Assembly (NCBI RefSeq): GCF_001690275.1
Contig: NZ_LZGW01000024.1
Location: forward strand, 1 to 39,134
Length of the DNA stretch: 39,134 bases
Direction of reading: 5' to 3'
DNA from: Gilliamella sp. WF3-4
GTDB taxonomy: Bacteria > Pseudomonadota > Gammaproteobacteria > Enterobacterales > Orbaceae
How positions within the stretch are numbered: the first letter of the stretch is position 1; every line of letters begins with the position of its first letter. Below are positions 6,047 to 24,871 of this stretch, piece by piece. The notes below the pieces were generated by a model. That model had not been told where the DNA came from, made no database searches, and saw only the letters and a program-made list of their open reading frames with translations. Made by a program: the position numbers and the translations under genes.

Positions 6047-6059
6047 TACTAGTCGTCTA

Positions 6060-6077
6060 TGTAATTAATATTTTACA
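6060..6077 (+). promoter_or_regulatory. TyrR-box-like site (proximal)
   Basis: TGTAATTAATATTTTACA matches TGTAAA-N6-TTTACA with one mismatch. It ends 37 bp before the aroF ATG and probably overlaps the promoter or start of the transcript, a position suited to repression. Confidence 0.65.
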
Positions 6078-6114
6078 TATAAAATATTTGAATGGTTTTA
6101 ACAAGGAAAGCAAA

Positions 6115-7200
6115 ATGTTAAAAGATACGCTAAATAATGTCCGAATTAAAGATGAACACATGTTAATCACACCTGAAGAAATAAAACAGCTTTACCCGTT
6201 ATCCCACGATCTAGAAAACCAAATTGCCTTATCAAGACAAACTATCGTTGATATTTTAGAGCGTCGAGATCATCGATTGCTTATCGTATGTGGTCCTTGC
6301 TCTATTCATGATACTGAGGCAGCACTTGAATATGCACATAAATTAAAAAAGCTATCGGACGAAATGAAAGATAATTTATTTATCGTCATGCGTGTCTATT
6401 TTGAAAAACCTAGAACAACCGTGGGTTGGAAAGGTATGATTAACGATCCTCATATGGATAGTTCATTTGATATTGAACATGGATTAAAAAAAGCACGTAA
6501 ATTACTACTGGATATCACTAAAATTGGTTTACCAATTGCAACCGAAGCGTTAGATCCTAATACTCCGCAATATATTGGTGATTTAATTAGTTGGTCAGCA
6601 ATCGGTGCAAGAACAACCGAATCCCAAACGCATCGAGAAATGGCTTCAGGACTATCCATGCCGGTTGGTTTTAAAAATGGAACCGATGGGAGCTTAGATG
6701 TGGCAATTAATGCAATGAAATCTGCATCTATGGCGCACCGCTTTGTTGGTATTAATCAACAAGGGCAGGTTACAATATTACAAACTATGGGTAATCCGCA
6801 TGGTCATGTTATTTTACGTGGCGGTAAAACACCTAATTTTGATGCTGAAAATGTGGCAGTGTGTGAAACACAAATGAAAAAGGCAGGTTTATTACCTAAT
6901 TTAATGATTGACTGTAGCCATGCCAATTCTAATAAAGATTATCGTAACCAACCGATTGTTGCTGATACTATTATTGATCAAATCGAAAAAGGTAATAATT
7001 CCATTATTGGTGTGATGATTGAAAGTAATTTATTTGAAGGGAATCAACCGTCAGAACAACCTCAAGAAAACTTGAAATATGGTGTGTCTGTTACTGATGC
7101 TTGTATTAGTTGGGAAACAACTGAACAATTATTACAAAAAATGAATAACCAGTTAGCTAAGTCATTAACTCAAAGACAAAAACAATCAGCGCAAGCTTAA
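6115..7200 (+). CDS. aroF: DAHP synthase, tyrosine-sensitive type (AroF)
   Basis: A 361-residue class I DAHP synthase that condenses phosphoenolpyruvate and erythrose-4-phosphate, the first shikimate step. Conserved segments include VCGPCSIHD, RVYFEKPRTTVGWKG, INDPHMD, GARTTESQTHREMASGLS and DCSHANSNKDY. The N-terminus (MLKDTLNNVRIKDE) and the ATEALDPN, FVGINQQGQV and SSEQ-like segments match E. coli AroF much better than AroG or AroH, so tyrosine feedback is expected. The start is the ATG at 6115 with AAGGAAAG upstream; nine further codons upstream are not conserved. tyrA, its usual operon partner, is absent: a terminator follows directly. Three TyrR-like boxes precede it. Confidence 0.95.
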   Translation: MLKDTLNNVRIKDEHMLITPEEIKQLYPLSHDLENQIALSRQTIVDILERRDHRLLIVCGPCSIHDTEAALEYAHKLKKLSDEMKDNLFIVMRVYFEKPRTTVGWKGMINDPHMDSSFDIEHGLKKARKLLLDITKIGLPIATEALDPNTPQYIGDLISWSAIGARTTESQTHREMASGLSMPVGFKNGTDGSLDVAINAMKSASMAHRFVGINQQGQVTILQTMGNPHGHVILRGGKTPNFDAENVAVCETQMKKAGLLPNLMIDCSHANSNKDYRNQPIVADTIIDQIEKGNNSIIGVMIESNLFEGNQPSEQPQENLKYGVSVTDACISWETTEQLLQKMNNQLAKSLTQRQKQSAQA

Positions 7201-7226
7201 TCTTTGTAAACAACAATCATAAAAAA

Positions 7227-7257
7227 ATCGCCGATGTTATCATCGGCGATATTGTTT
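7227..7257. terminator. Bidirectional intrinsic terminator between aroF and purL
   Basis: ATCGCCGATG (7227-7236), loop TTAT, and CATCGGCGAT (7241-7250) make a perfect 10-bp GC-containing stem. It is followed by ATTGTTTTTA on the plus strand and by seven T on the minus strand. It sits between the two convergent stops and can serve both genes; the purL side is the stronger. Confidence 0.9.
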
Positions 7258-7273
7258 TTAGTGTGAACTGAAC

Positions 7274-10200
7274 TTACCCAAGTTGCTTACGCACATTACG
7301 GAACATTCGCATCCAAGGACTATCTTCGCCCCAGTTATCAGGATGCCATGAATTGGTCACAGTCCTAAATACTCGCTCGGGATGTGGCATCATAATGGTT
7401 ACACGTCCATCTTTGGATGTTACGGCAGTAATACCATTTGGCGAGCCATTTGGATTGGCAGGGTATTGTTGAGTTACTTTGCCAAAGTGGTCAATATAGC
7501 GTACTGCAATTAATCCAGAGGTTTCTAATTTGTGAAGATGACTATCATCGCAGACTTCAACACACCCTTCCCCGTGTGAAACCGCAATTGGCATATGTGA
7601 GCCATTCATATCAGTAAAGAATAATGAAGGACTAGGTTGAATTTGCACTAAACTAAAGCGCGCTTCAAAACGCTCGGATAAATTGCGTACAAAACGAGGC
7701 CACAAATCAGCGCCCGGAATTAAATCCTTTAAATTCGACATCATCTGACAACCGTTACAAACCCCTAGTGATAGGGTATCTTGACGATGGAAGAATTGCT
7801 CAAATTCATCACGTACTTTTTCGTTAAATAAAATTGATTTAGCCCAGCCTTCACCAGCCCCTAAAACATCACCATAAGAAAAACCGCCACAAGCCACCAG
7901 TGTATTAAATTGGCTAAGCGTAATGCGACCTGAAAGTAAATCTGTCATATGCACATCGACTGCTTCAAAGCCAGCCCTATCAAATGCAGCAGCCATTTCA
8001 ACATGAGAATTAACACCTTGCTCACGTAAAATTGCCACTTTCGGTTTGCTCCCTTTGGCTATATAAGGCGCGGCAATATCTTGCATTGGATCAAAGGTAA
8101 GCTTCACATTCAAGCCCGGATCGTCTTCATTCTGTTTAGCTTGATGTTCTTGATCTGCACATTCAGGATTATCTCGTAAGCGTTGCATCTGCCATGTCGT
8201 TTCTGCCCACCATGTTCTTAAAGTTGAACGTGATTCGCTGTATACCATCGAGGTATTATTACGCACAATGAATTGCTGACCAGCTTTAGCCGATCCTAAC
8301 TGATGAATAGCATGAGAAAGCCCAAACTGCTTAAAGCAATTCATGACTTCATCTAAATCACTACCACGAATTTGAATAACTGCACCTAGCTCCTCATTAA
8401 ATAAAGAAGCAATCACATCACGACCAAGGGAATGAATATCAACATCAATACCACAATGCCCAGCAAATGCCATTTCTGCCAAAGTAACCAATAGACCACC
8501 ATCGGAACGATCATGGTAAGCAAGTAAAGATTTTTGAGCTATTAACGTTTGGATAGCTTGATAAAAAGAAGCTAATTCTTTGGCATCGTGAACATCAGCC
8601 GTTCTTTGCCCTAGGTGACGATAAACTTGTGCTAATGCGGTTGCACCTAATGCTTGATGACCTTTTGATAAATCAACAAATAATAATAAATTATCTTCAT
8701 CTGTATCAAGTTGTGGTGTGACGGTTTTGCGCACATCTTCCACGCGAGCAAATGCAGAAATCACTAACGACAACGGTGAAGTTACCGTTTTTTGCTCACC
8801 ATCTTGTTGCCATGTGGTTTTCATTGACATGGAATCTTTACCAACTGGAATGGCTAAGCCTAATGCAGGGCATAACTCTTCACCAATAGCTTTAACTGCT
8901 TGGTAAAGACCAGCATCTTCGCCTGGGTGCCCAGCTGCTGCCATCCAGTTAGCCGAAAGCTTAATACGCTTAATATCACCAATGTTGGTCGCCGCAATAT
9001 TGGTAATTGCCTCACCAACAGCTAAACGTGCTGATGCGGCATAATTAAGTAAGGCTACTGGCGCTCGCTCACCCATTGACATGGCTTCACCATAATAGCT
9101 ATCAAAGCTTGCTGTTGTAACAGCACAATCGGCCACGGGTACTTGCCAAGGTCCAACCATTTGATCTCGAGCAACCATACCGCTTACAGAACGGTCACCA
9201 ATCGTAATTAAAAATGTTTTTTCCGCTACAACGGGCAAATGTAGCACACGCTTTACGGCATCATATAAATTAATATCCGATGTGGAAAAACGATCGCCTT
9301 CGGCTTGACTAGATTTCACCTCTCGTAACATTTTTGGTGTTTTTCCCAATAAAACATCTAACGGCAAAGCTATCGGGTTATTATTAAAATGTTCGTCATG
9401 TAAAATCACAGCTTTATTGACGGTTGCCTCACCAATAACGGCATAAGGTGCTCGTTCACGCTGACAGAGTTCATCAAACAGCGCTAATTTATCGGGATGA
9501 ATAGCAAGAACATAACGTTCTTGTGATTCATTACACCAAATTTCTAGCGGTGACATGCTGGGTTCATCGCTAAGTATTTTGCGGAGTTCAAATTGCCCCC
9601 CACAGCCACCATCACTAACCAGTTCGGGCATCGCATTAGATAAACCACCTGCGCCCACATCATGAATAAATAAGATAGGGTTATCTTCACCAAGTTGCCA
9701 ACAACGATCGATAACTTCCTGACAACGACGTTCCATTTCTGGGTTATCTCGCTGAACAGAAGCAAAATCAAGATCCGCATCCGACTGACCAGATGTCATT
9801 GATGAAGCTGCGCCACCACCAAGCCCAATATTCATAGCTGGGCCACCTAAAACAATCAATTTAGAGCCTGCTGGAAACTCACCTTTTTGAATATGTTCAT
9901 GGCGAATATTACCAATACCGCCTGCTAGCATAATAGGCTTATGATAACCGCGAAGCTCTTCACCATTATGGCTATTAACCTTTTCTTCATAGGTACGAAA
10001 ATACCCTAATAGAGCTGGTCGCCCAAATTCATTATTGAAAGCAGCGCCACCAAGCGGACCTTCCATCATAATATCAAACGCGCTAACAATACGATCAGGC
10101 TTACCAAAATCTTGTTCCCAAGGCTGTTCAAAATGAGGAATGCGTAAGTTAGAAACGGAAAATCCGACTAATCCTGCTTTGGGCTTAGCACCTCTTCCCG

Positions 10201-11176
10201 TTGCCCCTTCATCACGAATTTCGCCACCACTTCCCGTTGCAGCTCCTGGCCAAGGAGATATGGCTGTTGGGTGATTATGCGTTTCAACTTTCATTAAAAT
10301 ATCAGCAAATTCTTGATGATATCGATAAGTTTGATTGTCATTATCAGCAAAAAAACGTCCGACTTTAGATCCGTCCATAACCGCGGCATTATCTTTATAA
10401 GCGGATGACACATAATCTGGCGTATGTTCAAAAGTATTCTTTATCATCTTAAACAATGATTTGGGTTGCTTCACACCATCAATAATCCAGTCAGCATTAA
10501 AAATCTTATGACGACAATGTTCAGAGTTTGCTTGAGCAAACATATAAAGTTCAATATCCGTTGGATTACGGTTTAATTTTTGGAAATTCTCAACCAAATA
10601 ATCAATTTCATCTGGCGCTAAAGCCAGTCCTAATTTTAAATTAGCTTCCTCTAATGCTTGGTGACCCTGTCCTAATAAGTCAATTACGGTTACTGGTGCT
10701 GGTTTATCGGCTTTAAATAATTTTTCTGCTTGAGCAAAATCCGTAAATACCGTTTCCATCATGCGATCATGAATTAAGCTTTCAAAAGCGACTTGCTGTA
10801 CTTGAGTAAAAGGGCTACTCATTTCAACATAATACGCAATACCCCGCTCAATTCGATGAACCTGCGTTAACCCACAATTATGCGCGATATCGGTTGCTTT
10901 TGATGACCAAGGCGAAATCGTTCCGGCACGAGGCGTCACTAAAAAGAGTTGTCTTTGGGTTTTATGCTCACCATTTACTTGCGTTGATTTAGGACCATAT
11001 TGCAATAACTTATCAAGCGTCAACTGGTCATCACTCGTTAAATCTTTAAACAGATCAATAAAATGAATATATTGCGCGTCAATATTAATAACGGGGATGG
11101 ATTTTTCACGGCAAACAGATAGGATTTTACTTATACGAAATGCAGATAAAGCAGAAGAACCAGCTAAAATTTTCAT
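7274..11176 (-). CDS. purL: Phosphoribosylformylglycinamidine synthase (PurL)
   Basis: A 1300-residue single-chain FGAM synthase (E. coli 1295) catalysing step four of purine synthesis: FGAR + glutamine + ATP to FGAM. It contains an N-terminal domain ([15 protein letters not shown]), the ATP-binding synthase core ([39 protein letters not shown]) and a C-terminal class I glutaminase. The glutaminase triad is Cys1140 ([10 protein letters not shown]), His1265 and Glu1267 ([10 protein letters not shown]). The ATG at 11174-11176 is chosen over one nine codons upstream because it matches the family start and has AAGAG before it. No PurR-type operator was recognised upstream. It is monocistronic here and ends at the shared terminator. 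Confidence 0.98.
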
Positions 11177-15987: not shown

Positions 15988-16248
15988 ACTCTCTCCTCAA
16001 AAGTTCGCTCAATGACTTACCTCATCCGTATAAATTACACCCACTTTGAAATAACGCGAATAGCCTTTAAAATAAACAGCAAGAAATGCTAAAAAACAAG
16101 CAATGAACAGAACGCTTATCTGCTTATTGCATAACAAACTTTGTGTGAAGATATTCCCTATTGCAATAAACCAAGGTATTATGTCGAAAATCTTCTCGAA
16201 ACAATAGAGTGATATTCCGTGGAACAATCGCCATCTGGACATAATTTA

Positions 16249-18126
16249 ATGTCATCGATTACAGCCTTTTTACCGAGCTCTTTTTCCCAATATTCGCCAC
16301 TGATTACTGTCTGCTTATTATTGTTTATTGCAATTATGCTATTCTCATTGAGCAAATTAAGAATGGACATTATTGCATTACTGACAATTACAGCCATTAC
16401 CATCACTGGCGTACTCACGCCATCAGAAGCATTAGCAGGCTTTAGTGATCCCAACATAATCCTAATTGCATTATTATTTATAATTGGAGAAAGCCTTGTA
16501 AGAACAGGTATCTCATACAAAATGAGCGAGTATATTCTTAAAATAGCAGGCAAAAACGATATCCGTATTATTATCTATATCATGTTAGGCGTTGCCTTGC
16601 TCGGCTCAGTAATGAGCTCAACAGGCGTTGTTGCTATTTTCATCCCTGTTGCTATCAGCATTGCTAATCACACTGGCATTCATGTAAAAAAATTAATGAT
16701 GCCACTTTGTATTGCTGCTTTAATTAGTGGCATGATGACTTTAGTGGCCACAGCCCCCAACCTAGTTGTCAACAGTGAACTGAGCCACTTTAAACTAACT
16801 GAATTTGGTTTTTTTTCAATTACACCAATTGGTTTAGGTGTTTTAGCAGTTGGGATCATTTACTGTGTATTAACTCGAAATTGGTTACTCTCAGCGGAAC
16901 AAGCCTCCCCCACCAATACCCAGCCACAAAGGCGAAAAATAACCGATTTAATTCGAGACTATAAATTAATTGGTCGTGCACACCGAGCACAGATACTTGC
17001 TGGCTCACCTTTTGTGGGGCGCACTATCGATGGTTTACATCTACGTAGTGAACACGGCGTAAATGTGATTGGTATTGAGCGCTGGCGAAAATTTCAAAAA
17101 GTACTAATCCCCGTTAATGGATCAACTGAATTTCGTGAAAATGACATTCTATTACTTGACATGTCGCATTCTGAAGCCGACTACCGCACTTTTTTAACCA
17201 CCAATCACCTTGAACCGAAAGTATTACGTGGCGAATATTTTTCAGAACAAGTTAAAGAAGTCGGCATGGCTGAAGTTGCACTCTTACCAGAATCAACATT
17301 ATGTGGTAAAACACTCAATGAAATTAATTTTAGGGGAAAATATTTCCTAACTGTCATTGGCATCTGGCGCAATCATGCCCCTGTTGAAACCAACAACTTA
17401 TTCCAAGAGCGCCTAGAAATGAGCGATACATTATTAGTGTGTGGTGACTGGGGATCGATCCAAAAACTACAAACACGAACAAGCGATTTTGTTGTATTAG
17501 ATTACCCATCAGATATTGATGATGTCGCACCAGCAAGTTCACAGGCATATGCAGCATTAATTAATTTAGCCATAATGATTCTATTCATGGTTACAGGTAT
17601 TGTACCAAATGTCGTAGCTGCACTCATTGCCTGCTTATTAATGGGTGCAACACGGTGCATTGACATGGCCAGCGCTTACCGATCAATCCACTGGCCAACA
17701 TTAATTTTAATCATTGGTATGATGCCCTTTGCACTAGCTCTCAATAAAACAGGAGGGATATCACTTATATCCGCATGGCTCGAAATCCACCTGCGCCATT
17801 TTGGTCCCTATATGGTACTAACATTTATTTTTTTATTATGCTCAACCATTGGCTTATTTATATCCAATACCGCAACAGCCATTTTAATTGCACCAATTGC
17901 TATTGATTTAGCATTAAAATTTGGCTATTCGCCGTACCCATTTGCTATGACGGTAGCCATTGCCACATCAGCGTCATTTATTACGCCAGTGTCTTCACCA
18001 ATTAAAACCATGGTAGTAGCACCTGGTGGCTATAGCTTTGGAGATTTTGTCAAAATTGGCGTGCCATTAACGTTTTTGGTGATGGCAGTTGATATTGCAC
18101 TAGTGCCAATATTCTTGCCATTTTAA
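16249..18126 (+). CDS. yfbS: SLC13/DASS-family anion transporter with two TrkA-C domains (YfbS-like)
   Basis: About 625 residues, nearly colinear with E. coli YfbS (610), an inner-membrane permease of the divalent anion:Na+ symporter family; the substrate is unknown. An N-terminal helix bundle holds MDIIALL, GFSDPNIILIALLFIIGE, SSTGVVAIFIPV and LVATAPNLVVNSEL. It is followed by two cytoplasmic TrkA-C-like regulatory domains (VIGIERWRKFQKVLIP and VIGIWRNHAPVETNN regions) and a second bundle with HWPTLILIIGMMPFAL, FISNTATAILIAPIAI and TPVSSPIKTMVV. The start is uncertain: a GTG at 16219 is also possible, but the ATG at 16249 fits the homologue better. It diverges from poxB across about 260 bp with no recognised operator. 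Confidence 0.9.
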   Translation: MSSITAFLPSSFSQYSPLITVCLLLFIAIMLFSLSKLRMDIIALLTITAITITGVLTPSEALAGFSDPNIILIALLFIIGESLVRTGISYKMSEYILKIAGKNDIRIIIYIMLGVALLGSVMSSTGVVAIFIPVAISIANHTGIHVKKLMMPLCIAALISGMMTLVATAPNLVVNSELSHFKLTEFGFFSITPIGLGVLAVGIIYCVLTRNWLLSAEQASPTNTQPQRRKITDLIRDYKLIGRAHRAQILAGSPFVGRTIDGLHLRSEHGVNVIGIERWRKFQKVLIPVNGSTEFRENDILLLDMSHSEADYRTFLTTNHLEPKVLRGEYFSEQVKEVGMAEVALLPESTLCGKTLNEINFRGKYFLTVIGIWRNHAPVETNNLFQERLEMSDTLLVCGDWGSIQKLQTRTSDFVVLDYPSDIDDVAPASSQAYAALINLAIMILFMVTGIVPNVVAALIACLLMGATRCIDMASAYRSIHWPTLILIIGMMPFALALNKTGGISLISAWLEIHLRHFGPYMVLTFIFLLCSTIGLFISNTATAILIAPIAIDLALKFGYSPYPFAMTVAIATSASFITPVSSPIKTMVVAPGGYSFGDFVKIGVPLTFLVMAVDIALVPIFLPF

Positions 18127-19366: not shown

Positions 19367-19924
19367 TCACAGCATGTGTAAATATTGCTCAGCAATTACC
19401 GCTAACGCTTGATAAAATGGGCTAATCTGGCTTTTCTGTAGCTTTTTTAAATAGGCTGATGACCAACTTAACAAATGTTCATCAATTAATTGTTTTGCTG
19501 TTACATGGTGATTATTTTCCAACAACATGGCGTATGCCATAAGCATTAATCCAAATTGATCTTCTGGCTCGTTTATTCCTGTATTGAGTTTTACCCCATG
19601 TTGTTGCAGAAATTGGCGATAGCTTTCTAGTGATTTTCCTAGCAATAGGTTTTCTTTATCCAAATAAAATGAACCCCACGGAGGTACAGGCATTGTTCCC
19701 TGTCCTTCAAATAATAGTGAAAATTGATAATTAAGGTCTGGATTATCAATTTGATTAACTAATATATGGCACTGCTCATAAATAAGGATAGAATCTTTCC
19801 ATGGAGCTAAATGGTTAATATGTAATAATGCCGGCGTTAATGATGCAGTAACTTTACTATTGGGTGGATAATAAAAAAACATACCAAGTAGTTTGGCTAA
19901 TGTGATAGAAACTAACTTATCCAA
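19367..19924 (-). CDS. dmsD: DmsD/TorD-family redox enzyme maturation chaperone
   Basis: A 185-residue all-alpha chaperone that inserts or proofreads molybdo-enzymes, normally by binding the Tat leader of DmsA. The C-terminal half closely matches E. coli DmsD: LLFEGQGTMPVPPWGSFYLD with PPWGS at 81-85, the EPEDQFG motif at 119-125 and SPFYQALAVIAEQ. A strong AAGGAGAT Shine-Dalgarno precedes the ATG. It follows dmsB after 81 bp, the place where dmsC would be expected. The client DmsA encoded next to it lacks a twin-arginine motif, so its role may be cofactor insertion rather than export quality control. Confidence 0.9.
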   Translation of the reverse strand: MDKLVSITLAKLLGMFFYYPPNSKVTASLTPALLHINHLAPWKDSILIYEQCHILVNQIDNPDLNYQFSLLFEGQGTMPVPPWGSFYLDKENLLLGKSLESYRQFLQQHGVKLNTGINEPEDQFGLMLMAYAMLLENNHHVTAKQLIDEHLLSWSSAYLKKLQKSQISPFYQALAVIAEQYLHML

Positions 19925-20005
19925 ATAAATATCTCCTTAGAACGATTCTATCAGTTAGTTACACTGATACCCCAAAAAAAACCCGTGGTAATTATGACAT
20001 ATTAC

Positions 20006-20620
20006 TTATACTTCTTCAGGATTAAGTATTTTACCTAAGGTATCGCCAGACATCTTAGCTTGTGCATGGGGTTTTATTACAATATTGGGCTTAGTGAGCT
20101 GTGAGCTTGGTAGTGGCGCAATATCGCATTGTTCGCCATAGTGCTGGCGTAGTGTTTCAATTTCATCAAAATCTAAAGCTCGCTGTGGGCATGACTCAAC
20201 ACAAACAGGCTTTAATCCCTCGACAACACGTTCATAACAACCATCACATTTTGACATGACCTTTTTTTGATAATCAAATTGTGGTGCTCCATATGGACAG
20301 TGGGTTTCACAATTTCGGCACCCCATGCAAATGTCTTGATTAACAACCACTAAGCCATCTTGTGAACGTTTATGCATTGCCCCCGTTGGGCAACTCTGCA
20401 CACAAGCAGGTTGTTCGCAATGATTACATGCGATAGACAAATAATAGGTAAAAGTATCATTTTGCCAAAGATTATCAACTAGCTGCCAACCACCACCACC
20501 ATATTCATAAACACGGCGAAAACGGACGCCTAAAGCACTATCTTTTTCATCTTTACAACTCACTTGGCAAGTTTTACAACCCGTGCATTTTGAAGAATCA
20601 ATATAAAATCCATATTGCAT
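20006..20620 (-). CDS. dmsB: DMSO reductase-type iron-sulfur subunit (DmsB)
   Basis: A 204-residue ferredoxin-like subunit (E. coli DmsB 205) carrying four [4Fe-4S] clusters that wire electrons to DmsA. Sixteen cysteines are in four groups: 12, 15, 18, 22; 65, 68, 73, 77; 98, 101, 104, 108; and 125, 128, 140, 144. The C-terminus (KPNIVIKPHA, LNPEEV) matches E. coli DmsB closely. The start follows AAAGGACGG by seven to eight bases, 21 bp after the dmsA stop, so translation is probably coupled. In the canonical complex DmsB docks on membrane DmsC; no dmsC follows here. Confidence 0.95.
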   Translation of the reverse strand: MQYGFYIDSSKCTGCKTCQVSCKDEKDSALGVRFRRVYEYGGGGWQLVDNLWQNDTFTYYLSIACNHCEQPACVQSCPTGAMHKRSQDGLVVVNQDICMGCRNCETHCPYGAPQFDYQKKVMSKCDGCYERVVEGLKPVCVESCPQRALDFDEIETLRQHYGEQCDIAPLPSSQLTKPNIVIKPHAQAKMSGDTLGKILNPEEV

Positions 20621-20641
20621 TTTTATTATCCGTCCTTTTAT

Positions 20642-23098
20642 TTATAACGCGAAACACGTATCCGATACCAGTTTGACATCAACCAAGTTGGTATGCTGTG
20701 GATTTGCTTTAGCAAGCACCGTTGGACGCAATGATGTTAAACGATTAATGCAACCGCCAATATCAATCCCTGCAGCATTATTTTTTGCCCACATTCCTTG
20801 GGGAATCGCAACAACACCAGGTAATATCCTTGGCGTAACTTTAGCGACAATATGCAACCGACCACGATCGTTATAAACTTCAACTAATTGTCCATGTTTT
20901 ATTTGCCGTTGTTCGGCATCAAATGGATTAATCCAAATACGGTTAGCGACAGCTTCACGCAATTGTGGCAAATTACTGTAAGTAGAATGGCATTGCCCTT
21001 TGGTATGAAATCCAATAAGTTGCAACGGATATTGTTGACGTTTAGATTTATCTTCACTGCCTTCAATCGCTGGTAAATAGGCAGGAATAGGATACAGCAC
21101 ATCTTGCGCATCAAGTTCCCATTCATTGGCAATGTTCGCTAACGTTTCTGAATAGATTTCTATTTTTCCTGACGGGGTAGTTAATGGATTTTTAATGGGA
21201 TCATCTCTAAAAGCTTTTAATCCAATTTGGCTAACACTATCGGCAAGTTTGCGATCGATAACCCCCATGCCATCAGTATCAGCAAAAGGCGGTAAATGCG
21301 GATCACGTTTTCGTAATTGTTCATAACAATACGCTACCCACTGCTCTTGAGTACGGCCTTGGGTAAATTGGTCTTTTACCCCCATTTTCTCAGACAATTC
21401 AGTTAATACATCATAAACAGGACGACTTTCCCAAAGCGGTTTAATAGCACTTTGCATACGGATAAGGTAACAATATGCCCCAGATGAATAAGAGTTATTA
21501 ATCAAGTCATTATTCTCAAACGATGACACGTCGGGTAATAATAAATCAGCATACTTAGCTGATGCTGTCATATGTGTATCCCAAACAAGAATAAATTCAC
21601 ATTTTGACTCATCTTGCAAAATCTGGTGAGTACGATTGAGATCTGAATGTTGATTTCCCAGTACATTACCCGCATAATTCCAGATAAATTTGATCCCCAC
21701 ATCCAATTTATCTTTATCTTTAAGGTAGGCATTTTTAGCAGTCATGCTTGGTCCATCTTCAATCGCTTTCGTCCACAAAAAGAAAGGAATACTGGTTTTT
21801 ATTGGATTAGGTAAATTAAAGTTAGGTATAGGATAAACAACGCTCCCGCCCCAAGTTCCAATGTTAGTGCCAGGTTTACCAAATTGCCCCGTAATAATTG
21901 GTAAGATCATAATGGTTCGCGCAGTATGTTCACCATTTTGCCAACGTTGCACACCATAACCTTGCGAAATCCAAGCAGCTTTAGCATCAACAATATCTAT
22001 TGCGAGTTTACGAATTTGTGTTGCTGAAATACCTGTTTTTTTGGCTGCCCATTCTGGTGTTTTAGGTGCTTTGTCATAGCCTAAACCTAAAAGGTAAGAT
22101 TTATAATCACTATAAGGCGGTGCACTATCAGGCAAAGAATCGGCATTCCACCCAATACAGTATTGATTAAGCATATCCTCATCAATACGATCTTGCTCAA
22201 GTAATGTATAGCCTATTGCCGCAACTAATGCCGCATCAGTACCGGGAATAATCGGGATCCACTCAGCATTATACGCAACGACACTTTCACTACGACGAGG
22301 ATCAATAATAATCACCCTTGCATGACTTTGCGCTAACGCATGAAAAAGCTCGGTAACTTGCCCACCGCCTGACATTCGAGTTTCGGCAATGTTATGTCCA
22401 AACATAACCACTAAATCAGAATGCTTGATCTGATCCAGTAAAGATTCTTTAGCATGACCAAACAAATAAGGCCGAATAGCTGAAATCTGCCCGCTTGAAT
22501 AATCACCATGGTAATTTAAATGACCACCAATGATACTTAAAAAACGCTTACATGCATTACGCCCTGAAAGATTAGCGCCCGTTGTTCCTGATCCATACTG
22601 ATAATAAATTGCTTCATTGCCATATTGATTAATCGTATATTTAAGTTTATTTGCAAGTAAATTAATCGCTTCATGCCAAGAAATACGTTTAAATTTACCT
22701 TCACCACGTTTACCAATTCGTAGCATTGGATACTTTAAGCGCGCAGGATCATAAGTTCGCCAACGAACTGCTCTACCGCGAAGGCAAGGGCGGATTTGAT
22801 GCAGACCAAAAACGGCATCATTAATGCCATCTTCTGAAGATATTTTAGTAATAATATCGTTTTTGACATGAACTTTTAAAGGACAACGACTACCACAGTT
22901 AACCAAACAAGCGCTATAAATAATCTTTTCTTTATGAATAGGGTGAGGATGAAAAACTGGGCTATGAGTAACTACGATGTCAGATTTGGCGTCGGTAAAG
23001 GGCAGTTGTATTTTACTGGTTATTGCTACTACGTCACTGATTGTTATTGTTTTTTGTGAAGAAGTGTATCGACTTATTTTATTTTTTAATTTACTCAC
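20642..23098 (-). CDS. dmsA: DMSO reductase-type molybdopterin catalytic subunit (DmsA/YnfE family), no Tat motif
   Basis: An 818-residue bis-MGD oxidoreductase. FS0 cluster cysteines are 64, 68, 72 and 105 (SACLVNCGSRCPL, RPCLRGR). The molybdenum-ligand region HGDYSSGQ is at about 197-204, with GETRMSGGG-like NIAETRMSGGG and the C-terminal cofactor domain (LIGFHTKGQCHSTYSN, GGCINRLTSLRPT). The nearest relatives are DmsA and YnfE/YnfF. The N-terminus is odd: MSKLKNKISRYTSSQKTITI has Arg-Tyr where DmsA has a twin arginine, and no typical hydrophobic Tat core follows. The GTG start has AGGGAAA upstream, and an in-frame stop just before it excludes a longer leader. Substrate (DMSO, TMAO, selenate or other) cannot be told. 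First gene of dmsABD. Confidence 0.93.
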   Translation of the reverse strand: MSKLKNKISRYTSSQKTITISDVVAITSKIQLPFTDAKSDIVVTHSPVFHPHPIHKEKIIYSACLVNCGSRCPLKVHVKNDIITKISSEDGINDAVFGLHQIRPCLRGRAVRWRTYDPARLKYPMLRIGKRGEGKFKRISWHEAINLLANKLKYTINQYGNEAIYYQYGSGTTGANLSGRNACKRFLSIIGGHLNYHGDYSSGQISAIRPYLFGHAKESLLDQIKHSDLVVMFGHNIAETRMSGGGQVTELFHALAQSHARVIIIDPRRSESVVAYNAEWIPIIPGTDAALVAAIGYTLLEQDRIDEDMLNQYCIGWNADSLPDSAPPYSDYKSYLLGLGYDKAPKTPEWAAKKTGISATQIRKLAIDIVDAKAAWISQGYGVQRWQNGEHTARTIMILPIITGQFGKPGTNIGTWGGSVVYPIPNFNLPNPIKTSIPFFLWTKAIEDGPSMTAKNAYLKDKDKLDVGIKFIWNYAGNVLGNQHSDLNRTHQILQDESKCEFILVWDTHMTASAKYADLLLPDVSSFENNDLINNSYSSGAYCYLIRMQSAIKPLWESRPVYDVLTELSEKMGVKDQFTQGRTQEQWVAYCYEQLRKRDPHLPPFADTDGMGVIDRKLADSVSQIGLKAFRDDPIKNPLTTPSGKIEIYSETLANIANEWELDAQDVLYPIPAYLPAIEGSEDKSKRQQYPLQLIGFHTKGQCHSTYSNLPQLREAVANRIWINPFDAEQRQIKHGQLVEVYNDRGRLHIVAKVTPRILPGVVAIPQGMWAKNNAAGIDIGGCINRLTSLRPTVLAKANPQHTNLVDVKLVSDTCFAL

Positions 23099-23368: not shown

Positions 23369-24871
23369 TTAAGGCGTTACACATGCCGTTATAGCGTAAG
23401 CATAAGGGGCATTATTTAAACGAACACCTCCAGATGCATCAACACCAAACTTATCAGCAGCCCAATATTCACCATCGAGCCAATCGTTGCCTCTATCCGG
23501 CTCATCAGTAAAATCACCCCACTCATTAAATAACCCCCCTATCCACCTTTCACCACTTTTGTAGCTAACTTGGCGAAGGTTATAATTTCCTTGCCCTGGC
23601 ACCCCCCAATGCCAATCAGAGCTATTCGCATTGGTGTAGTCCCCAACACTCGGTATACGATAACGACTTCCTAAACTATCGCAGAATATTTGAGCTTCAT
23701 CATAAGAGCCGTCACCAGAATCATCTGGATTTGCTAGATACCAACGTTCTATCTTAAAGCTATACAATAACTGGCTGTGGTTACTGTCGGCGTAAAGTTT
23801 AAATAATGAGGGACTAAATTTCTTTTTATCCGAGGCTTTACTTGGCCCCTTTAACGTTATTTTTAACTCACTGTTTTCAGTGCTTAATAATAATGTCGCT
23901 GAGTTACTACCACTGACGGCTGAAACGGTTGTGCCATTAGCATCAATGACCTGTTCTGGCGTGACACCGCCTAACCCTAAATGAAAACTGAGCCCATTTG
24001 AACCCGTTGTCGGAAAGTTTTCCTCTGGAATATGACTATTTACCACCAGAAAACCTAACCCTCGTACCCAGTTTGGCCCCTCCCCACCACCATATCTAGC
24101 TGGTGGGCTTGCATAACAAGTGCGCACTCCATTTTTCGCTTTTAAATAGTAAGTTTGACTCACATGATCGAAATCCCTTGCCTTTGGTATGCCATATTGA
24201 GTTGACAGTTGAGCATCATCTATGGAAAGTGTTAACACATACAAAGAGCAAAGGTCTAATTTATCTGTAGAATGGCTCTTAACGATACGGGTAAGATAAT
24301 CACTATTTCGATCATACAAAAAAGCATCTAAAGTACCTGTTATATTGCCATAACTATCCCCATCATCATCCAACAAATTATTGCCACCGATTATCTTGCT
24401 TAATTCAATAACTGAATAATTGTCCATCTTGGGAATGGGGACTAATGTTTGAATACCATCAAACGAATCTGCATTACTCGGCAACTCAATTGTATAATAA
24501 TTATCCACAGCCTTAGCATTTGGATAGAAATTTGACTCCCCATTTTTAGGCACATACTCACGCCCATCGGATAGTCTGATGCCTAATAGCGCTTGAATAT
24601 TGCCTTTGGTGACACCACCATCAAAAGTAAGATAGGGAGCGCTCCCATGTATCACTTGTGTTGTTGTGGCTGATAATGCACTGGCATAATGAATATGGCA
24701 CGTAATTAAAAATAGGCTTAATATAAAATGACGCAATATCGCCTTTACGTTATAACAATACGATTTAAGTAAAACACATACAGAAGAAAATGTTGAAACA
24801 AAAAATAAAATAACAAGATACTGATAATTATAGCTTGACTGCCACCGCTGGTAAGTGATTATTTTTAACAT
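23369..24871 (-). CDS. Secreted adhesin-like protein with lectin-like C-terminal domain
   Basis: This 500-residue protein is not assigned to a named family. The N-terminus has two hydrophobic segments, about 18-36 (YLVILFFVSTFSSVCVLL) and 44-65 (ILRHFILSLFLITCHIHYASA), the second ending in a plausible signal-peptidase site. The middle is Ig-like in texture, with an FPTTGSNGLSFHL motif that recalls repeats of large DUF823-type adhesins. The last 110 or so residues (DEAQIFCDSLGSRYRIPSV, ERWIGGLFNEWG, EYWAADKFG, ITACVTP) look like the C-type-lectin-like or DUF1566-like cap of such surface proteins. A strong GGAAGG Shine-Dalgarno supports the ATG at 24871. A surface or secreted binding role is inference. 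Confidence 0.6.
   Translation of the reverse strand: MLKIITYQRWQSSYNYQYLVILFFVSTFSSVCVLLKSYCYNVKAILRHFILSLFLITCHIHYASALSATTTQVIHGSAPYLTFDGGVTKGNIQALLGIRLSDGREYVPKNGESNFYPNAKAVDNYYTIELPSNADSFDGIQTLVPIPKMDNYSVIELSKIIGGNNLLDDDGDSYGNITGTLDAFLYDRNSDYLTRIVKSHSTDKLDLCSLYVLTLSIDDAQLSTQYGIPKARDFDHVSQTYYLKAKNGVRTCYASPPARYGGGEGPNWVRGLGFLVVNSHIPEENFPTTGSNGLSFHLGLGGVTPEQVIDANGTTVSAVSGSNSATLLLSTENSELKITLKGPSKASDKKKFSPSLFKLYADSNHSQLLYSFKIERWYLANPDDSGDGSYDEAQIFCDSLGSRYRIPSVGDYTNANSSDWHWGVPGQGNYNLRQVSYKSGERWIGGLFNEWGDFTDEPDRGNDWLDGEYWAADKFGVDASGGVRLNNAPYAYAITACVTP

Follow-up and report, generated by a model that had tools for sequence, protein, structure and literature searches.

Related systems and the dms locus of Gilliamella sp. 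WF3-4

DmsABC of the Escherichia coli type is a respiratory complex that is exported through the twin-arginine translocation (Tat) pathway, fed with quinol and accompanied by the chaperone DmsD. Here we describe a derivative of this system in the bee gut symbiont Gilliamella, centred on the dms genes of Gilliamella sp. WF3-4 on contig NZ_LZGW01000024.1 of assembly GCF_001690275.1 (39,134 nucleotides, hereafter the window). The genome (G000) comprises 2.85 Mb in 61 contigs and is rated 100% complete; the window is its contig C24. The locus matches the E. coli-type system in its DmsA, DmsB and DmsD families, its cluster cysteines and its gene order, and sister species carry a full dmsABCD with a Tat leader. 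It differs in that its operon has neither DmsC nor a twin arginine, that residues in the third cysteine group of DmsB are changed, and that menA has been lost in three of the four genomes with this arrangement.

DmsAB without DmsC also occurs in the Shewanella-type DmsEFAB system, which is exported, keeps its leader and is fed by multihaem cytochromes; in Gilliamella, by contrast, the leader is lost. NarGHI likewise combines a bis(pyranopterin guanine dinucleotide) (bis-PGD) enzyme with a TorD-family chaperone and bears a remnant Tat leader on a non-exported enzyme. NarGH, however, keeps its membrane anchor NarI and its quinol supply, whereas in the Gilliamella case the anchor has been lost, and the change is so recent that the genus still contains intact relatives. 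The remnant Tat peptide of NarG, which is read by NarJ, is the nearest precedent (PMC10609526). BisC, a cytoplasmic biotin sulfoxide reductase listed among the Dor/Tor-type enzymes (PMC12096835), is a bis-PGD enzyme acting on S-oxides and has no Tat leader; it illustrates a possible present mode of Gilliamella DmsAB, although the latter is a DmsA with a four-cluster DmsB. For operons without dmsC in other phyla, in species with several dmsD or dms loci in trans, soluble forms or relics of lateral transfer were suggested (PMC4464133). Unlike these cases, the set in the window is the only intact copy found by search of its genome, and leader loss, deletion scar, selection and menA loss are documented. 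A literature search returned no paper on dimethyl sulfoxide (DMSO) reductase or dmsA in Gilliamella. In respiratory molybdoenzymes such as NarG, remnant Tat leaders are taken as the sign of an ancient move from outside to inside; here a similar move has apparently taken place inside a single genus, in which both the original and the derived state survive, so that its order and cost are directly testable.

We propose, with a probability of about 75%, that in these Gilliamella a Tat-exported, quinol-fed complex of the DmsABC type was converted, after loss of its quinol supply, into a soluble cytoplasmic DmsAB S-/N-oxide reductase. As the sequences show, dmsC has been deleted, DmsA has lost its twin arginine, menA is reduced to a remnant (three of four genomes) and DmsB has changed inside its third cysteine group, with the DmsAB frames and strong purifying selection kept. 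An initial annotation of the locus had suggested a soluble cytoplasmic enzyme still in use; the joint loss of leader and dmsC in all four genomes, the lack of exceptions in 33 others and the purifying selection on DmsA point the same way, while menA loss, recombination and the DmsB change had escaped it. In ordinary Gilliamella, MenA would make (demethyl)menaquinone from scavenged 1,4-dihydroxy-2-naphthoate (DHNA), and DmsC would feed periplasmic DmsAB. Once this chain was lost, the enzyme would be retained inside, its cofactor loaded by DmsD or by a leader-independent route, and electrons could enter via DmsB from a soluble candidate donor such as ferredoxin, flavodoxin or an NAD(P)H-dependent reductase. 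It would then probably reduce S- or N-oxides in the cytoplasm, such as methionine sulfoxide or biotin sulfoxide. Because DmsAB is translocated even without DmsC in E. coli (PMC10609526), retention inside would have needed a separate loss of the leader.

Deletion of dmsC and erosion of the DmsA leader

The three genes lie on the reverse strand. The first, dmsA (20642..23098, GTG start), encodes the 818-residue Mo-bisPGD catalytic subunit, which scores 1110.7 bits on TIGR02166 (DmsA/YnfE subfamily; cut-off 777.7), has homologues of 75-87% identity within the genus, and stays under the cut-off of the bisC family model TIGR00509 (388.6 against 1017.55 bits). The four-cluster Fe-S subunit of 204 residues is encoded by dmsB (20006..20620) and scores 250 bits on TIGR02951 (cut-off 214.1). 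The product of dmsD (19367..19924, 185 residues, with a TTG start also seen in many relatives) is a maturation chaperone of the TorD/DmsD family; it reaches 143.9 bits on the equivalog NF008632, under the cut-off of 162, 67.5 bits on PF02613 (cut-off 22.2), and E-values of ~5e-25 against the solved DmsD chains 3cw0, 3efp and 3u41 and 1.7e-30 against 1s9u, the Salmonella DmsD (PMC10609526). The assignments of DmsA and DmsB are thus secure, and that of DmsD is clear by PF02613 and the solved structures despite the sub-cut-off NF008632 score.

We found DmsC in 30 of 35 Gilliamella genomes. In WF3-4 only an 81-bp scar (19925..20005, reverse strand) separates dmsB from dmsD, and comparison of this gap across eight genomes gave 82 bp in Gilliamella sp. 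App6-5 (G008), 81 bp in Pas-s25 (G025) and 127 bp in G. bombicola R-53248 (G019); the four relatives that bear dmsC have 883-953 bp here. In the WF3-4 scar, a decayed dmsC start is joined directly to the ribosome-binding site and start of dmsD. This junction is common to WF3-4, App6-5 and Pas-s25; that of G. bombicola retains a longer dmsC start and has a different right end, matching its sisters G023 and G024. Two different junctions point to at least two losses, and dmsC was probably deleted more than once. The four genomes do not form one clade on the tree of flanking genes, which places App6-5 by ubiA alone, or on that of mature dmsA and dmsB; each tree needs four state changes, with starred branches forcing four on the former and three on the latter. 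In an order-wide sample of 120 genomes, DmsA scored above its cut-off in 22 and DmsC was present in 17 of these; the DmsA-positive genomes without DmsC were WF3-4 and four of one other family, whose DmsA may be of the Shewanella-like DmsEFAB type.

The gene order without dmsC and the 81-bp gap are therefore as first annotated, and the proposed search for an anchor elsewhere gave no match to PF04976 (DmsC) or PF03916 (NrfD) at E ≤ 0.001 in the whole genome. It is quite improbable that DmsAB is attached through another membrane protein encoded elsewhere: the search covered these two families, and FdnI-type or unfamiliar anchors could serve, but the genome rated complete has no match to either, and leader loss would place DmsAB on the opposite side from the known periplasm-facing anchors. 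For a draft in 61 contigs, an error of sequencing or assembly might also be considered; its probability is negligible, given that three other assemblies show the same state, two of them with the same deletion junction, and that the in-frame substitutions are scattered along the leader. We reject it, and a local lesion, on the evidence of these three assemblies. Relatives do carry Tat leaders, which the initial annotation would have taken as a sign of such a lesion; these leaders are of about the same length, however, and the loss recurs with that of dmsC.

The eroded Tat leader of WF3-4 occupies codons 1-34 of dmsA (SRYTSSQKTITISDVVAITSKIQLPF; 22997..23098, reverse strand) in an alignment with 33 other genomes, in which relatives have a leader of the type SRRDFLQKSLTIGGVAALTxNxQLPFAYA. 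As previously annotated, Ser-Arg-Tyr stands in place of Ser-Arg-Arg (Arg-Tyr at codons 10-11, 23066..23071, reverse strand); also lost is the DFL that follows the arginine pair, and an Asp stands in the former GG of the hydrophobic region. The other three dmsC-less leaders have KC, KC and QG at the position of the pair. By this comparison DmsA carries no export signal. The open frame starts five codons ahead of the GTG, so that no longer leader is hidden upstream; the stop noted there is real, and the GTG start, considered as a sign of decay, was rejected as such on finding it in the relatives G018, G021, G023 and G024, which have the arginine pair (RR). Hydrophobicity, taken crudely as the Kyte-Doolittle maximum over 15 residues, with leaders judged by comparison rather than by a signal predictor, is 0.80, 0.82 and 0.98 in the other three leaders, under the range of 33 dmsC-bearing genomes (1.05-1.50); the WF3-4 leader reaches 1.21, within that range, and the earlier statement that it lacks a clear hydrophobic leader is correct only in part.

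Leader and dmsC state could be read jointly in 33 of the 35 Gilliamella genomes and in four Orbus-type genomes. RR is present in all 33 dmsC-bearing Orbaceae with a readable leader (29 Gilliamella and the four Orbus-type) and lost in all four dmsC-less Gilliamella, an association with a Fisher p of 1.5e-5, uncorrected for kinship. Two genomes were dropped: G032, which is 67% complete, has RR on a dmsA cut off by the contig end and yielded no DmsC, and G034, which has dmsC but whose leader is off the contig. G029 was counted by its RR-bearing dmsA copy, next to which dmsB is frame-broken and dmsC split; its intact dmsC adjoins a second, broken dmsA. Among the best 120 of 4593 DmsA relatives, a list of clusters at 90% identity that may hide variants, five lack RR, namely three whose sequence begins within the protein, App6-5 and P0018. 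This last sequence, a Gilliamella-like DmsA from JGI of 78% identity, has a different leader lesion (TPSDCLQKS) and may represent a further, third loss of RR. In a set of 74 named loci, three leaders without RR were scored beside dmsC; two of these, L093 and L113, have a dmsA match that is spread across two reading frames, and the third (L117) is a decayed second copy. The remaining loci without RR are those of App6-5, Pas-s25 and G. bombicola.

Continued export by a degenerate signal or by that of a partner is very improbable. In its favour, the WF3-4 leader keeps one arginine and its hydrophobicity is unremarkable, but the KC, KC and QG of the other three leaders, the statistically near-neutral evolution of all four and the canonical RR leader of a formate dehydrogenase in the same genome (MLFNRRQFFK) speak against it. 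The presence of TatC and of this RR-bearing enzyme indicates that Tat signals are still maintained in WF3-4.

Two side observations concern related loci. The formate dehydrogenase gene set, so called for its similarity to such genes (L158, contig C3, 5356-10101), has an RR leader and no internal stop codon, and is the only other such enzyme that a DmsA search found in WF3-4. In Orbaceae bacterium ESL0721 the two dms clusters are damaged in complementary ways: in one (L155, ~6057-9863, the same as L117) dmsA is broken and the dmsB and dmsC matches are full-length, and in the other (L144, ~6408-10341) dmsA is full and bears RR, dmsB is frame-broken and dmsC is split.

Electron entry, recombination and menaquinone supply

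The cysteine groups of DmsB are intact (12/15/18/22, 65/68/73/77, 98/101/104/108 and 125/128/140/144, with an extra Cys at 165). Within the third group, residues 103-107 (20300..20314, reverse strand) set the dmsC-less genomes apart from dmsC-bearing Gilliamella: positions 103, 106 and 107 are Y, M and R in all 27 of the latter examined, while position 103 is N, H, H or R in the four, with T at 106 and H at 107 (N103, T106 and H107 in WF3-4). Among the named loci that bear dmsC, 63 have the motif; in these, which overlap the Gilliamella genomes, Y and R are invariant and the middle residue is M (46) or L (17). The third group presumably ligates the cluster nearest DmsC, as in E. coli; no DmsABC was among the solved structures matched by sequence. 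DmsA positions 749 and 798 are also altered in WF3-4, App6-5 and G. bombicola and unaltered in Pas-s25; position 798 is weak, being Ala or Gly in G028 and G040 as well.

Parts of the operon appear to have moved between lineages. Two stretches, one running from the start of mature dmsA as far as mid-dmsB and the other extending from dmsD into ubiA, show 97-100% identity in nearly all windows between Pas-s25 and G. mensalis (G021), the latter with RR, dmsC and menA. The leaders of the two genomes are only 81-89% identical, and the genomes also diverge in a patch at dmsB codons ~89-108, less strongly in a second patch close to the dmsB end, and from the scar to the start of dmsD; the exchange left some 2.5 kb of the operon middle unaffected. 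In the leader, the dmsB patches and the scar Pas-s25 is closest to App6-5, and the stretch that separates the dmsB patches is more like that of G. mensalis. Since both genomes carry menA, Pas-s25 was probably the recipient, although the reverse direction may apply. In G. bombicola, dmsB codons 1 to ~120 and the 3' end of dmsA are App6-5-like, and the leader, scar and dmsD resemble those of its sisters G023 and G024; it seems to have taken the former parts from an App6-5-like donor. We considered and rejected independent convergence of M106T and R107H in G. bombicola, where dmsB codons 1 to ~120 are like those of App6-5 and Pas-s25; as this segment was probably imported, a control with 3000 random sets, which were not matched for relatedness, is no proof of independent convergence.

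A search of the 35 Gilliamella genomes for menaquinone genes found menB in none, menD above its cut-off in none, and menA in 31. One of the four genomes missing menA, G036, is 81% complete and also lacks the neighbouring rraA; its menA absence is thus probably an assembly gap, and we set it aside as a dmsC-bearing exception. The other three are WF3-4, App6-5 and G. bombicola, in which rraA and the menA neighbourhood are intact and menA survives only as a C-terminal remnant (residues 265-300, a weak match with E 0.038, in WF3-4; 246-300 in App6-5; 244-300 in G. bombicola). WF3-4 therefore has no menA of its own to supply a DmsABC, although it may take up ready-made menaquinone. Among 30 near-complete genomes, 26 have both dmsC and menA, three have neither, one (Pas-s25) has menA without dmsC, and none has dmsC without menA (p 0.001, uncorrected). 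The menA of Pas-s25 differs from that of G. mensalis by five nonsynonymous and seven synonymous codons, against 6 and 51 for seven neighbours together (p 0.018), a hint of early relaxation. The scars of App6-5 and G. bombicola are nearly identical, and a clearly independent loss of menA in these two genomes was not upheld.

All four Orbus-type genomes carry menA and dmsA on one strand, with menA 175-203 bp upstream. This adjacency and the joint loss of menA and dmsC lead us to infer DHNA scavenging for DmsABC, with Gilliamella menA serving this complex. Menaquinone synthesis from external DHNA is known in Lactiplantibacillus plantarum (PMC10746273). In a survey of 95 Gilliamella genomes, menA was reported in 86 with no other menaquinone gene, and a different role or no function was suggested for it (PMC11325843); the main text of that survey contains neither 'dmso' nor 'dimethyl'. 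Scavenging for DmsABC would be a possible answer to its question on the orphan menA. A broader reading is tentative, and we lean somewhat against it: conversion to a cytosolic enzyme might have been repeated and recent, with the electron entry re-cut for a new soluble donor, modules (the leader-minus DmsA end, the DmsB Y103x/M106T/R107H segment and the dmsC deletion) exchanged by recombination, and the orphan menA kept chiefly for DmsABC from scavenged DHNA.

Selection on the dms genes and neighbouring features

Nonsynonymous to synonymous rate ratios (ω) were estimated with a codon model written for this analysis, leaving out G028, G029 and G040, on trees that recombination renders imperfect. 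Mature DmsA is under strong purifying selection in the dmsC-less lineages, with ω of 0.059 in WF3-4, 0.070 in App6-5 and 0.040 in G. bombicola against a background of 0.044-0.045, and neutrality is rejected in each (p 2e-44, 4e-26 and 1e-27); the branch of Pas-s25 (0.117, p against 1 of 0.012) is too short to say much. The leader looks relaxed, with ω of 0.448 for the four together against 0.141 (p 6e-4), indistinguishable from 1 (p 0.085), and 0.433 in WF3-4. The flanking controls ubiA, parE and parC are unshifted (p 0.82, 0.49 and 0.54; App6-5 has no parE or parC on its contig). The frames of dmsA, dmsB and dmsD are intact in all four genomes.

Several results weigh against the conversion to a cytoplasmic reductase. 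The dms operon contains no donor gene, and the location, donor and substrate proposed for the WF3-4 enzyme are predictions from sequence. Outside the genus, at the Ferrimonas locus L105 (44% identical), RR, dmsB and dmsD occur without a dmsC match. Constraint in the four together is reduced on DmsB (ω 0.104 against 0.038, p 3e-5), on DmsD (0.334 against 0.131, p 6e-6) and slightly on mature DmsA (0.056 against 0.044, p 0.048), which some decay would also give. Some branches that bear dmsC deviate as well, in the leader (0.478 in G023, p 0.054; 0.400 in G015), in DmsA and DmsB (0.070 and 0.145 in G004) and in DmsD (0.321 in G007, about as high as without dmsC), as do flanking controls in G007 (parE) and G. 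mensalis (parC). Pas-s25, without dmsC and RR, still has menA, so that the link to menaquinone is not absolute, and the like menA scars of App6-5 and G. bombicola, with the recombinant DmsB of the latter, mean that several losses are not independent.

These values bear on the alternative of decay in progress, in which, after failure of the quinol supply, the loss of dmsC and the leader is the first stage and that of dmsAB has yet to come. We hold it to be unlikely. The relaxed leader, the raised ω of DmsB and DmsD, and the state of dmsC and menA, already remnants, are as it predicts, but mature DmsA is nearly as constrained in WF3-4 as in dmsC-bearing lineages, and the three dms frames have stayed intact in all four genomes while dmsC and menA decayed. 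Were about one third of the WF3-4 branch neutral, as its leader ω suggests, simple arithmetic would give ~0.36 for mature DmsA. The earlier proposal that DmsD is kept for cofactor insertion fits continued use of DmsAB, although DmsD looks relaxed in the dmsC-less lineages.

Downstream, ubiA adjoins dmsD and is itself adjoined by a CitMHS/DASS-type transporter with TrkA_C domains (16219-18126). The opposite flank carries two genes that we take to be parE and parC, and between dmsA and parE lies a protein of 500 residues without Pfam or NCBIfam match (23369-24871). Farther upstream of dmsA the close relatives compared are non-homologous, and the corresponding columns 0-1950 of the operon alignment were ignored. 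FNR boxes upstream of dmsA were considered and discarded as uninformative, since the best matches in each genome scanned have two or three mismatches. At the end of another WF3-4 contig (C37), a degenerate copy of the dmsA 5' end with the same Arg-Tyr codons (L157, ~6781-6965) is flanked by two inverted stretches, which by eye look like IS3-type transposase genes.

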